Assembly: GCF_900187365.1 (NCBI RefSeq)
Contig: NZ_FYDG01000001.1
Coordinates: forward strand, 744,001-808,000
From: Rhodoblastus acidophilus
GTDB lineage: Bacteria > Pseudomonadota > Alphaproteobacteria > Rhizobiales > Beijerinckiaceae
Reading direction: 5' to 3'
Length of the DNA stretch: 64,000 nucleotides
Within the stretch, counting starts at the first letter, position 1. Each line of letters begins with the position of its first letter. Shown here in pieces: positions 26,945-30,757 of this stretch. The notes under the pieces are model-generated. The model worked only from the letters and a program-made list of their open reading frames with translations, was not told the DNA's origin and made no database searches. Made by a program: the position numbers and the translations under genes.

Positions 26945-27001
26945 TTTATTTTGACGCATAGTCTTTTCCGAAAACCGGGCACGCTTTTCGGGAATCTGCG
27001 C
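26945..27001. repeat. dispersed intergenic palindromic repeat, copy B
   Basis: This is related to the copy at 2733-2793 over about 57 bases (shared core TTCCGAAAACCG, then GCACGC, then TTTCGGGA-like arm). CCGAAAA and TTTTCGG can pair with one bulge. It lies in the convergent gap between ispE and the glycosyltransferase gene, and ends exactly at the stop codon of the latter. Confidence 0.65.
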
Positions 27002-27942
27002 TAGACGCAGTTGGCGTCCTCGTTGCGGGAGCGCAGATAGCGGTCGAACGCTCGCTCCAGCTCCGGCTTGTCGCCGGAAAACTCCAGCACGCCCCAGGAA
27101 TTGCGGATCAGGTCGTTGACCGGGTCGAACTGGTGCTGCACGAACATATCCCAGCGCCCGACATAATTGCGCCGGACTTTGGAGCCGTGGAAAAGGTGCT
27201 CGACGGCGAACGGCAGCGCCCCCACCTTGCCCTTGACATGCTCGCGCGCCCGCGCCTCCCAGCGCTGCACCGCATTGAGGTAATTGCCATTGGCCTTGCC
27301 GTGCACCGACTTGTCGCCGAACCCCGCCAGCGCCAGCGCCATATGGTGGTCGCCCGACCCCATGCCGCCCACCTCGAACAGACCGCCGAGCTTGTCGAGA
27401 ACTTCGCGCGTATAGGCCCAGGCGTAGCCGCTGTGGGGATATTCGTAGGGGCCGCCGTCCGACTTCCACATTTTCGGGCCATTGGGCGCGACCGGCTGGC
27501 CCGCGTGCAGCAGAGAGGCGAAGCTCTTGTGGACGCCGATCAATTCGTCGTTCGGCCCGAGGTCGTAGCAGATTTCCCAGGGCTGGATCACCGGATAGAG
27601 GTGCAGCGCATTGATCACCTCCCTGGCCCAGCCGGGACGGCGGAACACGATATCGGCGTCGAACGAGCCAAAATATCTGGCATCCTCCGGCGAACGGGCA
27701 AACCCGATATTCATCAGGTTTTCCTTGTTCCAGACCAATGTCTTGGCGCGCACCGGCACATAGGTGATGCGGGGATAGCCGGCGAAGTCCTCCAATTCGT
27801 AGGGACGGTCGCCATAGGCGCATTCGACCAAGGTGACCCGGACCTCGGGCTCCTCCAGCCAGGAGCCGATCGCTCGTCGCGCCGTGGCGACGCGGCTCTT
27901 CCAAAGCAGCGGATTGGCTATTACTGTAACAATGTCAAGCAT
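27001..27942 (-). CDS. GT-A-type glycosyltransferase
   Basis: The 313-residue product has a GT-A nucleotide-sugar fold: strand MLDIVTVIANP, then ARYFGSFDADIVFRRPGW with a DAD metal-binding motif near 92. A second acidic/His region, GGMGSGDHHMALALAG, appears near 195 and would suit galactosyltransferase-type catalytic contacts. I cannot name the acceptor. I chose the ATG at 27942; a GTG at 27945 also opens the frame. It is downstream of a 370-base non-coding stretch, and a dispersed repeat borders its stop. Confidence 0.75.
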   Translation of the reverse strand: MLDIVTVIANPLLWKSRVATARRAIGSWLEEPEVRVTLVECAYGDRPYELEDFAGYPRITYVPVRAKTLVWNKENLMNIGFARSPEDARYFGSFDADIVFRRPGWAREVINALHLYPVIQPWEICYDLGPNDELIGVHKSFASLLHAGQPVAPNGPKMWKSDGGPYEYPHSGYAWAYTREVLDKLGGLFEVGGMGSGDHHMALALAGFGDKSVHGKANGNYLNAVQRWEARAREHVKGKVGALPFAVEHLFHGSKVRRNYVGRWDMFVQHQFDPVNDLIRNSWGVLEFSGDKPELERAFDRYLRSRNEDANCV

Positions 27943-27945
27943 CAC

Positions 27946-28315
27946 CCCCCCAAAAAGCTGGCCTCAGCTTTACAGGCAACGTTTCTCTCTCGGTGGATTC
28001 CCGTTCGTTCGCGCTCTGCGGCCGTCACATCTGTGATTCTATTGCGGCGCGTCTCAATTACAGGTTGTAGTTAATGGAATTTTCAGGAGCCAGCAAGCGC
28101 CGCGCTCATGGTCGCCTAATGATTTTTTTGCAGGATCAAGCTCTTGGCTTTCGCCGCCCGAACGGCTGCTTTTGCAGGCGAACAGGGCGTTTTTTCGCAC
28201 CGCCCCGCATCGGGCGCCCCGCCGCAATATCGCCACTGCGCTGACGAATGTCCGCCGCGTGAGTCTTTCTTGCAACGCTCGCGCGGAGAGAACCTCCCCA
28301 TGGGCGGCCGCGCAT
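27946..28315. other. 370-base gap without a supported gene
   Basis: This stretch lies between the glycosyltransferase start and the small-RNA terminator. Two short frames (plus strand from 28074, about 57 codons, and minus strand 28054-28275) have no ribosome-binding site and no recognisable product. It may hold the promoter of the leftward glycosyltransferase gene. I see no repeat or palindrome of note. Confidence 0.5.
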
Positions 28316-28343
28316 AAAAAAAAGGCCGCTGCGAACAGCGGCC
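28316..28343 (-). terminator. intrinsic terminator of the candidate small RNA
   Basis: GGCCGCTG (28324-28331) and CAGCGGCC (28336-28343) pair perfectly around a CGAA loop. On the minus strand they are followed by eight T residues (28316-28323). No protein gene on the minus strand ends nearby, so it must end an RNA-only unit. Confidence 0.9.
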
Positions 28344-28400
28344 CAAGTCTAGGGAGGAAACGCCCAAGGAGGGCTGCAGCACAGGCGAGGCCTGCGCTAC
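28316..28400 (-). ncRNA. candidate small RNA with anti-Shine-Dalgarno motifs
   Basis: A complete small transcription unit lies on the minus strand: a consensus promoter (28408-28436), about 85 bases, then an intrinsic terminator (28316-28343). The RNA would fold as a 7-bp hairpin (GCGCAGG with CCTGTGC, one G-U pair), a hairpin GCCC-TCCTT-GGGC with an anti-Shine-Dalgarno CCTCCTT segment in its loop, an unpaired GTTTCCTCCCTAGAC, and the terminator stem. This layout, with CU-rich loops facing ribosome-binding sites, matches what I recall of the alpha-r14 / NfeR1 family of Rhizobiales trans-acting small RNAs. I give that family name tentatively. It is divergent from the acid phosphatase gene. Confidence 0.7.
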
Positions 28401-28407
28401 GAGGTCT

Positions 28408-28436
28408 AATCTATGTTGCGACGCACAAAATGTCAA
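28408..28436 (-). promoter_or_regulatory. sigma-70-type promoter of the small RNA
   Basis: On the minus strand TTGACA (28431-28436) is followed by exactly 17 bases and then TAGATT (28408-28413). The -35 is perfect and the -10 matches TATAAT at four of six positions, with ideal spacing. Transcription would begin near 28400. Confidence 0.75.
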
Positions 28437-28529
28437 TGCTTTTGCTGCGACGCATCATTGCAAAGTCGCCAGCGGGCGGCGATACAGGCGCTCCGCCGTG
28501 TGTCGCGAGCATGGCCGCCTGGAGGAAAA

Positions 28530-29237
28530 ATGCAGAAATCCGCCCTTCTCGTCTCCGTCGCTCTGGTTTTGACGCCGGTTTCCGCCCTGGCGCGGGAGGC
28601 GGTGTTCGTCACGCCCGAACAATCCGAAGCTATCCTGATCGTGCCGCCGCCGCCGGCGGACGGGTCCGAGGCGCATCAGGCCGATCTGGCGCGGCTGCAC
28701 GAGATCGAGCGCACGCGCACGCCGCAACAGGAGGAGGCCGCGCGCGCCGACGCCGGCAACCAAACGATTTTCATGTTCAAGCCGCTGTTCGGCGATGTTT
28801 TTTCCGAAGCGAACCTGCCGCTGACGGTCGCCCTGGCCCGTCGCGTTTTCGAAGACGCCAAGGTCAATGTCGGCGCGGCCAAACATTTGTATAATCGCAA
28901 GCGGCCCTATGCGGCGGATCCGACGCTGCATCCGGCCTGCCCCACCACGCCCAAGGACGATTCTTATCCGAGCGGCCACAGCATGGTCGGCTGGCTGCTC
29001 GGCCTGACCCTGGTGGAAATGGTTCCCGAGCGGCGCGACGACATTCTCGCCCGCGCCGCCGGCTTCGCCTTCGCCCGCAATATCTGCGGCGTGCATTACC
29101 CCAGCGATATCGAAGCAGCCCGGGCGCTGGCCTATGCGGTTCACGGCGCGCTGGCGCAGAACCCGAGCTACAAGACGGAGCTGGCGGCGGCCCGCGCGGA
29201 ATTGCGCAAGGCGCTGAACCTGCCGGAGACGCCGTAA
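28530..29237 (+). CDS. class A acid phosphatase (PhoN-like)
   Basis: The 235-residue product has a signal peptide (MQKSALLVSVALVLTPVSALA) and the PAP2-type active site of class A nonspecific acid phosphatases: the KxxxxxxRP motif in KHLYNRKRPYAAD near 120, PSGHSMVGW near 153, and ARNICGVHYPSDIEAAR near 190, with a typical His and Asp (the usual SR becomes AR). Such periplasmic enzymes dephosphorylate organic phosphates. The ATG at 28530 has GGAGG at 28521-28525. It is divergent from the small RNA unit. Confidence 0.9.
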   Translation: MQKSALLVSVALVLTPVSALAREAVFVTPEQSEAILIVPPPPADGSEAHQADLARLHEIERTRTPQQEEAARADAGNQTIFMFKPLFGDVFSEANLPLTVALARRVFEDAKVNVGAAKHLYNRKRPYAADPTLHPACPTTPKDDSYPSGHSMVGWLLGLTLVEMVPERRDDILARAAGFAFARNICGVHYPSDIEAARALAYAVHGALAQNPSYKTELAAARAELRKALNLPETP

Positions 29238-29256
29238 ACCCGGCGCTCCCGGCGGA

Positions 29257-29574
29257 TCACTCCATGCCGGCGACGGTGTGGTCCTGATTGAAGCCGCGAT
29301 TGAGCATGATCGACTGGGCGTGGCCCTGCGCGTCATGCCATTTGGCGCGGCAGATCTGCGGACCGCACCAGATTTCGGGGAAGTGGTACAGCGGCTTGCC
29401 ATTGGCCATGCGCGCGCCATAGGAGGCGTCGGGCCTCCAGCCCTGGGCGATCAGGGCGGCGCGCGCTTCCATATAGGGCTCGCCGGAGGCGACCTGCGCC
29501 AGCGCCGGCGCCGCCAGCGCGCCGGCCAGCGCCAAGGTCGCCAACGTCGTCACCCCGAAAAAACCTGTCTTCAT
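29257..29574 (-). CDS. small secreted hypothetical protein
   Basis: The product has 105 residues with a signal peptide (MKTGFFGVTTLATLALAGALAAPALA). The mature part holds a Cys pair (EIWCGPQICRAKW) that likely forms a disulfide and a central segment ARAALIAQGWRPDAS typical of Rhizobiales secreted hypotheticals. No family can be named. It is on the same strand as the MltB-type gene, 13 bases after it, so they probably form a unit. Confidence 0.65.
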   Translation of the reverse strand: MKTGFFGVTTLATLALAGALAAPALAQVASGEPYMEARAALIAQGWRPDASYGARMANGKPLYHFPEIWCGPQICRAKWHDAQGHAQSIMLNRGFNQDHTVAGME

Positions 29575-29587
29575 TGCTCATTCTCCA

Positions 29588-30757
29588 TCAATTCGCGCGC
29601 AAAAGGTCGAGGACAGCGCGCGAGGGATACCCATCGGCCCTGGCCACCCCGGCGCCGCGTTGCAGGGCGTGAATGGCCAGCCGCGTCACCGGCCCGAATC
29701 GTCCGTCGATCTTGCCGTCGTACAGCCCCTTTTGCATCAGGCCACGCTGAATGTCCGCGCGCTCCTCCGCCGAAAGCGGCTGCGCCTCGGCCGGCCACGC
29801 CTGCCGCAGCGCGGGCCGGCCGGCGATGCGCTCAGCCAGCACCGAACCGGCGAAGGCGTAGGAGTCCGAAAAATTATAGGCCTTCAGCACGAAGAAATTT
29901 TCGGACAGCAGGAAGGCCGGCCCCTCGGCGCCGACCGGGAAGAACAGCATGGCCGCCCCGGCGCGCGGCAGATCGGCCTGCGCGCCGCCGTCCAGCGGCT
30001 TGAACCCCGCCGCGCGCCAGGCGGCAAAATCCTGCTTCAGCGTGGCATAGTCGAAACCTTCCGGCGCGCGCGTTTCGATCAGGGGAGCGAGGCCCGCCGC
30101 CCAGCTGCTTTCATGCAGGAAATTGCCGATCGACAGCAACGAATCCGGCGCGTTCCAGATGTCGGGCGCGCCGCCGGACGCACTTTTGGCGTATTTGAGA
30201 TAGGCGGAGGGCATGAATTGCGGATCGCCCATCGCCCCCGCCCAGGATCCCCGAAGCTTTTCGCGCGGCAGGCCCTTTTGCAGCAGGACGAGTCCGGCGA
30301 CGAATTCCTGCGCATAGACGGGATTATCGGGATGCAGGAACGCCAGCGTCGCGAGGGTGCGGAAAATGTCGCGGTCGCCGCGCGAGCGGCCGAAATCGCT
30401 TTCCATGCCCCACAGCGCGACGATCATCTCGCCGGGAACCCCGGCGGCGCGGGAAGCCGCGTTCAAGGCAGTGGCGTTTTTCTGCGCGGCGTCTCGCCCC
30501 GCCTTGGCGCGGGCGGGTGAAGCGGCCTCATCGACATAGGTTTTCAGCGGCCGGGTGAACTCGCCCTGCCCCGCGCGCTTGCCGGACAGCGACGGATCCT
30601 GGCTCAAGCCGCCGATCACGGATTCGAAAATCTCGTCGGACACGCCGGCGGCGCGGGCGGTACCGCGGAACCCCTCGACGAAGCCGGCGAAATCCTCCGC
30701 CCAGGCCGGGCTGGCGGCCAGCGCCGCCGCCAGGCTCAAGAATGCGCGTCGATCCAT
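29588..30757 (-). CDS. lytic murein transglycosylase, MltB family
   Basis: The 389-residue product has a Tat/Sec-type signal (MDRRAFLSLAAALAASPAWA) and an SLT domain (about 20-300) with the catalytic Glu in ALWGMESDFGRSRG near 125. Other family motifs include GSWAGAMGDPQFMPSAYLKYA (the family's G-A-M-GxxQFMPS segment) and NAPDSLLSIGNFLHESSW. A C-terminal peptidoglycan-binding domain (about 320-388, FGPVTRLAIHALQRGAGV) follows. It cleaves peptidoglycan to 1,6-anhydro products. It lies seven bases after the DMT transporter gene on the same strand and in turn is followed by a small secreted protein. Confidence 0.93.
   Translation of the reverse strand: MDRRAFLSLAAALAASPAWAEDFAGFVEGFRGTARAAGVSDEIFESVIGGLSQDPSLSGKRAGQGEFTRPLKTYVDEAASPARAKAGRDAAQKNATALNAASRAAGVPGEMIVALWGMESDFGRSRGDRDIFRTLATLAFLHPDNPVYAQEFVAGLVLLQKGLPREKLRGSWAGAMGDPQFMPSAYLKYAKSASGGAPDIWNAPDSLLSIGNFLHESSWAAGLAPLIETRAPEGFDYATLKQDFAAWRAAGFKPLDGGAQADLPRAGAAMLFFPVGAEGPAFLLSENFFVLKAYNFSDSYAFAGSVLAERIAGRPALRQAWPAEAQPLSAEERADIQRGLMQKGLYDGKIDGRFGPVTRLAIHALQRGAGVARADGYPSRAVLDLLRAN

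Follow-up and report, generated by a model that had tools for sequence, protein, structure and literature searches.

A predicted alpha-r8 (MmgR/suhB) small RNA gene of Rhodoblastus acidophilus with putative PhaR boxes in its promoter

To which family does a small RNA unit of Rhodoblastus acidophilus belong, and which signal might switch it on? The unit lies on the minus strand of a stretch of 64,000 nucleotides (hereafter the window), where a promoter, a predicted RNA of about 85 nt and a terminator follow each other from 28436 to 28316. A preliminary description had taken it for a complete small RNA unit with anti-Shine-Dalgarno segments, resembling the alpha-r14/NfeR1 family. The unit itself is borne out by a match to Rfam model RF00519, by its fold and by a promoter kept in the genus, and on sequence grounds it belongs to alpha-r8/MmgR (RF00519), another alphaproteobacterial family of anti-Shine-Dalgarno sRNAs. 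Our main reading, with a probability of roughly 0.8, is that the locus is a gene for a trans-acting antisense RNA of the alpha-r8 (MmgR/suhB) family, predicted to be controlled by PhaR, the repressor that senses PHB.

Table 1. Features of the small RNA locus and its neighbours (window coordinates).
Feature	Position	Strand	Basis
Predicted PhaR box, TGCGTCGCA, before the -35 element; starts 29 bases away from the start of the spacer box	28446..28454	-	TGCGTCGCAGCA fits TGCRNYGCASMA in full
-35 element TTGACA	28431..28436	-	promoter scan; TTGAC invariant in 11/11 aligned genus copies
Predicted PhaR box, TGCGTCGCA, within the -35/-10 spacer	28417..28425	-	consensus of PMC6201568, PMC12542648
-10 element TAGATT, 17-base spacer	28408..28413	-	promoter scan; TA of the hexamer invariant in genus copies
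Predicted sRNA transcript, ~85 nt: 5' hairpin, SL1 hairpin, single-stranded anti-Shine-Dalgarno linker, terminator	28316..28400	-	fold and genus alignment
5' hairpin, 11 pairs, sequence variable, structure kept, outside the Rfam model	28376..28400	-	fold and genus alignment
Rfam RF00519 suhB/MmgR (alpha-r8) match, model 1-77 of 77	28308..28381	-	75.1 bits, gathering cut-off 41
SL1 hairpin, GCCC-UCCUU-GGGC	28362..28374	-	Rfam alignment and fold
alpha-r8 10-mer UUUCCUCCCU, anti-Shine-Dalgarno seed, mostly unpaired	28351..28360	-	fold; 10-mer per PMC12559287
Intrinsic terminator, GGGCCGCUG-UUCG-CAGCGGCCU, then U-run	28316..28344	-	terminator scan and fold
PAP2-family phosphatase gene, divergent neighbour	28530..29237	+	Pfam
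Gene for a small hypothetical protein (105 aa) without a Pfam match	29257..29574	-	homologue search in flanks
ORF downstream of the sRNA (314 aa), without a Pfam match; not always a neighbour	27001..27945	-	homologue search in flanks

The promoter is sigma-70-like (TTGACA-17-TAGATT, 28436-28408) and agrees with the consensus at 10 of 12 bases. It is the sole site found in 27000-30000, where shuffled sequences gave a mean of 0.3 (sd 0.6), so that the match is modest when taken alone; the invariance of TTGAC in the genus counts beside it, and the consensus promoter of the preliminary description is upheld. The terminator stands as well: its stem of 9 pairs (28344-28323) leads into T residues. 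Across these 3 kb there were 3 terminator-like sites, with 3.1 expected, so the scan alone is not beyond chance. Folding of the RNA from 28400 to 28313 gave three hairpins and -45.5 kcal/mol (z = -6.3), and none of 200 shuffles was equally stable. The predicted hairpin loops are CUC, UCCUU and UUCG. Of two CU-rich segments said to be free for pairing with ribosome-binding sites, TTTCCTCCC is largely unpaired, whereas CCTCCTT is only partly looped, its CC being paired and the loop reduced to UCCUU. Nor is the locus quite devoid of protein frames, as had been proposed: two mechanical ORFs with TTG starts cross the sRNA, one of 106 aa on the minus strand and one of 240 aa on the plus strand, but the Rfam match and the conservation of base pairs favour an RNA over a protein frame. 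The RF00519 match (E = 1e-13 over the window), together with the conservation in relatives, rules out chance.

The 5' end would lie near 28400, given where the -10 box lies and where the 5' hairpin begins, and the conservation of this hairpin supports such a start. Among the 11 genus copies, four of its pairs were changed on both sides while 100% of the cells remained paired, as compensatory changes require. When the whole structure was compared with 500 shuffles, its covariation score was reached by none, its count of doubly changed pairs by one, and its number of further pair types by 235; sliding the partner broke the covariation signal. In the same copies SL1 is invariant and changes in the terminator are one-sided, and the covariation evidence covers neither. 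The 5' segments of a wider set of copies (set A, described below; 31 distinct segments of 28 bases) were also folded, and for 24 of them no more than 5% of 200 shuffles were equally stable.

A scan of the whole window with the curated cut-offs of Rfam 15 gave a single match, RF00519 at 28381-28308, with an alignment that is close from GCCCU through the U-run. The family hallmark UUUCCUCCCU is placed between the small hairpin SL1 and the terminator, where TTTCCTCCCT (28360-28351) has a mean unpaired probability of 0.92. This is the arrangement by which alpha-r8 RNAs were defined in Caulobacter, namely a terminator and an unpaired UUUCCUCCCU after a weak hairpin (PMC12559287). The gene has its own promoter and intrinsic terminator and is not tied to specific neighbours; within the genus one neighbouring gene (29257-29574) is kept and the others differ.

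The genome (4.71 Mb, 74 contigs) contains five RF00519 matches, four of them over the cut-off, and the copy described here scores highest. Own genome included, 36 of the 41 close genomes have a match (over the cut-off in 31), as do 118 of the 193 genomes of the class (over the cut-off in 94); at E up to 0.001, none was found in 5 of the 41 relatives and in 75 of the 193. One genome of the same family, G023, has 14 matches, the next highest number among the 41 being 7. Tandem copies occur at L008 (two) and L029 (three), each with at least one PhaR-type box in its own promoter, and double or triple tandem copies are also present at L067 and L075 (Ancylobacter). Two sibling copies of the genome under study, L002 and L003 (G000:C68, C38), have another 5' segment in common, GTGACTTCACGTCGCAGATGCCCA, and lack a PhaR box; they may therefore answer other signals. 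Single alpha-r8 copies are reported to be linked to N-formylglutamate amidohydrolase (PMC12559287). In this genome FGase has two matches, on C31 and at C68:244894, and neither is beside any of the five RF00519 matches.

The closest known system is MmgR of Sinorhizobium meliloti, which is alike in covariance model, UUUCCUCCCU linker, terminator and a PhaR-type palindrome between -35 and -10. It differs in its length of 77 nt, against some 85 nt predicted here, and in lacking the long 5' hairpin. For the mmgR promoter one PhaR box is listed (PMC12542648, Table 3), whereas two are predicted here. MmgR is given as the sole alpha-r8 RNA of S. meliloti (PMC12559287), as opposed to five matches in our genome; against "sole", the number column of a table in PMC7143759 gives 3 for this species. 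SisA-SisD of Caulobacter crescentus, which have CrfA as a sponge, belong to the same family, with the same 10-mer seed and several copies that have unlike promoters.

What might control the gene is suggested by two palindromes, one upstream of the -35 element and one in the spacer. In Bradyrhizobium, a PhaR box TGCRNYGCASMA was deduced with the help of footprints (PMC6201568). The upstream box has no mismatch to this 12-mer and the spacer box one. In S. meliloti, PhaR (AniA) represses mmgR, and the purified protein bound the mmgR promoter efficiently in EMSA; the box is given as WNWD2NYGCRNYGCRNH2WNW (PMC12542648). Each box of the window has one mismatch to this 21-mer, as has the EMSA-tested mmgR site itself. 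That site ends 13 bases before the transcription start (site from PMC12542648, start from a table of PMC7143759), which would be about the position of the spacer box if transcription here starts at 28400. A review describes a conserved dyad between the -35 and -10 elements of mmgR (PMC8401924). A conserved heptamer, TTGTGCA, has reportedly been described in the mmgR spacer (the abstract of Ceizel Borella 2018). In the promoters of relatives, TTTTGTGCGNCGCA or close forms of it stand between -35 and -10 and fit the PhaR box. In more recent work on Bradyrhizobium, however, the PhaR consensus is much looser, and the authors caution that GC pairs of this type abound in the genome (PMC10888616).

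The same boxes precede phasin genes. When TTTTGTGCRNYGCA, a pattern drawn from the promoters of relatives, was searched in the 4.71 Mb genome (98.5% complete), three matches were obtained, against none for the reversed control, and all three fell in the sRNA promoter and at two phasin loci. Upstream of the best-scoring phasin gene (C35), boxes lie 118 and 86 bases before the ATG, 32 apart, one before TTGAC and the other between TTGAC and TATAAA, which is the layout of the sRNA promoter. The second phasin gene (C48) has its match 120 bases before the ATG. Predicted box palindromes are then common to the sRNA promoter and to phasin genes of the same genome, which also encodes PhaR (PHB_acc_N, 6e-30). 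No boxes of this kind were present in the stretch before another phasin match, L160, which has two GC-rich single matches only (CGCGCCGCG and CGCGGCGCG), nor in the stretch before phaR, nor within 110 bases upstream of the seed position in the four other RF00519 copies. The phaP1 and phaP2 promoters of S. meliloti, which are controlled by PhaR, also have two boxes around -35 (PMC12542648); they drive phasins, while the promoter here drives an sRNA.

On alignment with related genomes (alignment A1: 11 genus copies from 10 of the 11 genus genomes), the promoter and both boxes were kept in every copy. Genome G008 was not included, since the boxes of its best copy, L034, are spaced differently. 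Variation in the upstream box is confined to the three middle bases, with constant arms (first base T or C), and in the spacer box to the middle base alone. For wider comparison we counted the pattern YGCRNYGCR within 95 bases upstream of SL1. The copies examined for boxes were the best-scoring ones, any tandem copies within the same loci and, separately, the four remaining copies of the genome under study. Set A comprised 34 distinct copies at 30 loci (window included; one locus from each of 30 genomes, out of the 36 that had a match). At least one box was found in 33 of them, the exception being a copy in L020, and at least two in 28, compared with 8.3 and 1.1 for dinucleotide shuffles; in six other 95-base blocks of the same loci, 0 to 7 of 34 had a box and none had two or more. 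Set B, picked by an exact core pattern, comprised 119 distinct copies out of at least 121, shares seven upstream blocks with set A, and includes 6 loci of 119 that gave no copy with 95 upstream bases. Among the matches listed, 115 of 119 had at least one box and 89 at least two. Five control blocks gave 6 to 14 of 112-122 and one gave 41 of 113, with two or more boxes in 0 or 1 per block. This last block, which starts at +550 from SL1, is far above the other controls, perhaps through a shared neighbouring gene, and it indicates that single boxes can be common in some stretches. At the level of the class, 28 new loci among the best 30 of the search had at least one box in 23 cases and at least two in 10, against 16 of 168 control blocks; these counts, like those of sets A and B, are not phylogenetically independent, and relatedness inflates all of them.

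Several other readings of the locus can be weighed against this evidence. Membership in alpha-r14/NfeR1, the resemblance first proposed, is hardly tenable, even if alpha-r14 and alpha-r8 are both alphaproteobacterial with anti-Shine-Dalgarno motifs and NfeR1 too has a sigma-70 promoter (PMC7143759). In the alpha-r14 layout the motif is unpaired in all loops of three hairpins (PMC7143759); here it is absent from some of the three loops and stands in full in the linker only, and it is RF00519 that fits over its full length. The alpha-r14 model, RF02344, gave seven weak matches genome-wide (E up to 10), all of them elsewhere and below the cut-off of 58.8 bits, for 150 scored out of 232 first-look candidates, the locus possibly not being among those scored. 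A listing of Rfam matches has no RF02344 line for the locus either, though overlap removal within the clan may hide one. The alpha-r15/AbcR model (RF02345) had one sub-threshold match, elsewhere in the genome, and SorY, anti-hemB and the other Rfam lines were far below their own cut-offs. Sub-threshold candidates of the genome include an ar14-like one (L164, G000:C29:93187-93292, 29.1 bits) and an ar15/AbcR-like one (L154, G000:C47:402788-402882, 32.3 bits). Could the RNA instead be a leader or attenuator acting in cis on the gene at 27945? The terminator does fall between the promoter and this ORF on the same strand, but the RNA ends 371 bases before it, and the downstream gene differs between relatives (L014, L024, L019), which makes a leader very improbable: the 314-aa gene is found about 0.9 kb downstream of the sRNA in L024, has a weak match of 51 aa only in L019, and has no match in the 1.5 kb flank of L014. 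The PAP2 gene was matched in L014 only (and L037, the same locus); for the majority of loci the flanks compared measured some 1.5 kb. For the 105-aa gene, a homologue is present in the flanks of the sRNA in the nine other genomes of alignment A1, and none was found in L034 (G008) or L045. Corbino et al. likewise considered the family most likely a noncoding RNA without specific neighbours (PMC1273637). A decayed or silent paralog is about as remote as a leader: there are five copies to choose from, and only one of six NfeR1 copies of S. meliloti was reliably seen on northern blots (PMC7143759), but the copy studied here is the highest-scoring of the five and is kept with both boxes throughout the aligned genus copies.

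A more serious alternative, which we still find unlikely, accepts the alpha-r8 sRNA and holds that a regulator other than PhaR binds its spacer palindromes, or that these are mere promoter sequence, so that the gene would give no response to PHB. PhaR binding here is a prediction, 5 of the 28 class-level copies have no box, and the Caulobacter siblings are reported without a shared promoter motif (PMC12559287). On the other side, the remaining TTTTGTGCRNYGCA sites of the genome all precede phasin genes, and the boxes fit the consensus deduced from footprints in Bradyrhizobium (PMC6201568), one of them sitting at about the place of the EMSA-tested S. meliloti site (PMC12542648).

With PhaR as the probable regulator of this alpha-r8 gene, we infer how transcription, PhaR and Hfq binding, targets and the direction of the physiological effect might fit together. 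Without PHB, PhaR would occupy both boxes and keep the sRNA gene off, and the phasin gene with the same promoter layout would be repressed likewise. As PHB granules form, PhaR would leave the DNA, and phasins and sRNA would come on together. The sRNA, probably held by Hfq, could then cover the Shine-Dalgarno sequences of selected mRNAs through its unpaired UUUCCUCCCU and stop their translation, acting as a built-in brake on carbon storage or uptake. In S. meliloti, PhaR is taken up by PHB and represses phasins and mmgR, and an mmgR mutant has more phasin protein with unchanged phasin mRNA (PMC12542648, PMC8401924, PMC9049629); PMC7143759 words the phasin effect of mmgR in the opposite way, and according to a review the effect may be direct or indirect.

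The gene is a well-formed member of the known MmgR family and adds an example to an established system, not a novel type of RNA; family, seed and PhaR control in one species are already published. What had been an sRNA vaguely resembling NfeR1 can now be assigned to a family by name, and its proposed input (PHB via PhaR) and output (the UUUCCUCCCU seed) can be tested. Among best-scoring copies, 23 of the 28 at class level and 33 of the 34 in the closer set have a box, which suggests that the PhaR-MmgR link of S. meliloti is general. If so, RNA braking of carbon storage would be a trait common to many Alphaproteobacteria. We give even odds to a further proposal, that control of one alpha-r8 copy by PhaR is an ancient wiring found across the class. 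The PHB sensor would switch on both the coat proteins of the granules and an RNA against ribosome-binding sites through one operator layout, as an incoherent feed-forward brake, while extra copies would have lost the boxes or never had them and would serve other signals. Class-wide PhaR boxes at alpha-r8 promoters may already be known; in the literature on mmgR with PhaR or AniA (titles and starts of abstracts, among the matches listed), no map of them was seen.

As to targets, the alpha-r8 10-mer of Caulobacter SisA pairs with an mRNA leader, as compensatory change showed (PMC12559287). Direct targeting of phasins, the favoured idea in S. meliloti, is unsupported here, because pairing of the linker with three phasin leaders was not above shuffles (fractions 0.317, 0.113 and 0.790); these represent three of the four Phasin_2 matches, all but L159. 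Pairing with the phaR leader was not above chance either (0.427). Seven GGGAGGAAA sites were collected, of which L172 (an 8-codon frame) and L174 and L177 (antisense of alpha-r8 copies) were dropped. Pairing was strong for the leaders L173, L175 and L176 (0.003, 0.020 and 0.017), with 0.077 for L171, but the result is circular because the leaders were picked by that pattern.

Five exact complements of the 10-mer, AGGGAGGAAA, exist in the genome. They were inspected by eye for a CrfA-like sponge: two are antisense strands of alpha-r8 copies, one stands at the start of a DUF2147 gene, and the other two were inspected together with their open frames. The DUF2147 gene (L210, G000:C29:878621-878630) has a signal-peptide-like start, and AGGGAGGAAAAATG at its ribosome-binding site is the exact complement of the whole 10-mer. 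Beside the sRNA itself, the PAP2 gene carries GGAGGAAA at 28521-28528 (+), one base before its ATG, and its start GGAGGAAAAATG (28521-28532, +) is complementary to eight seed bases (UUUCCUCC); it may be a local target, but such Shine-Dalgarno sequences are common.
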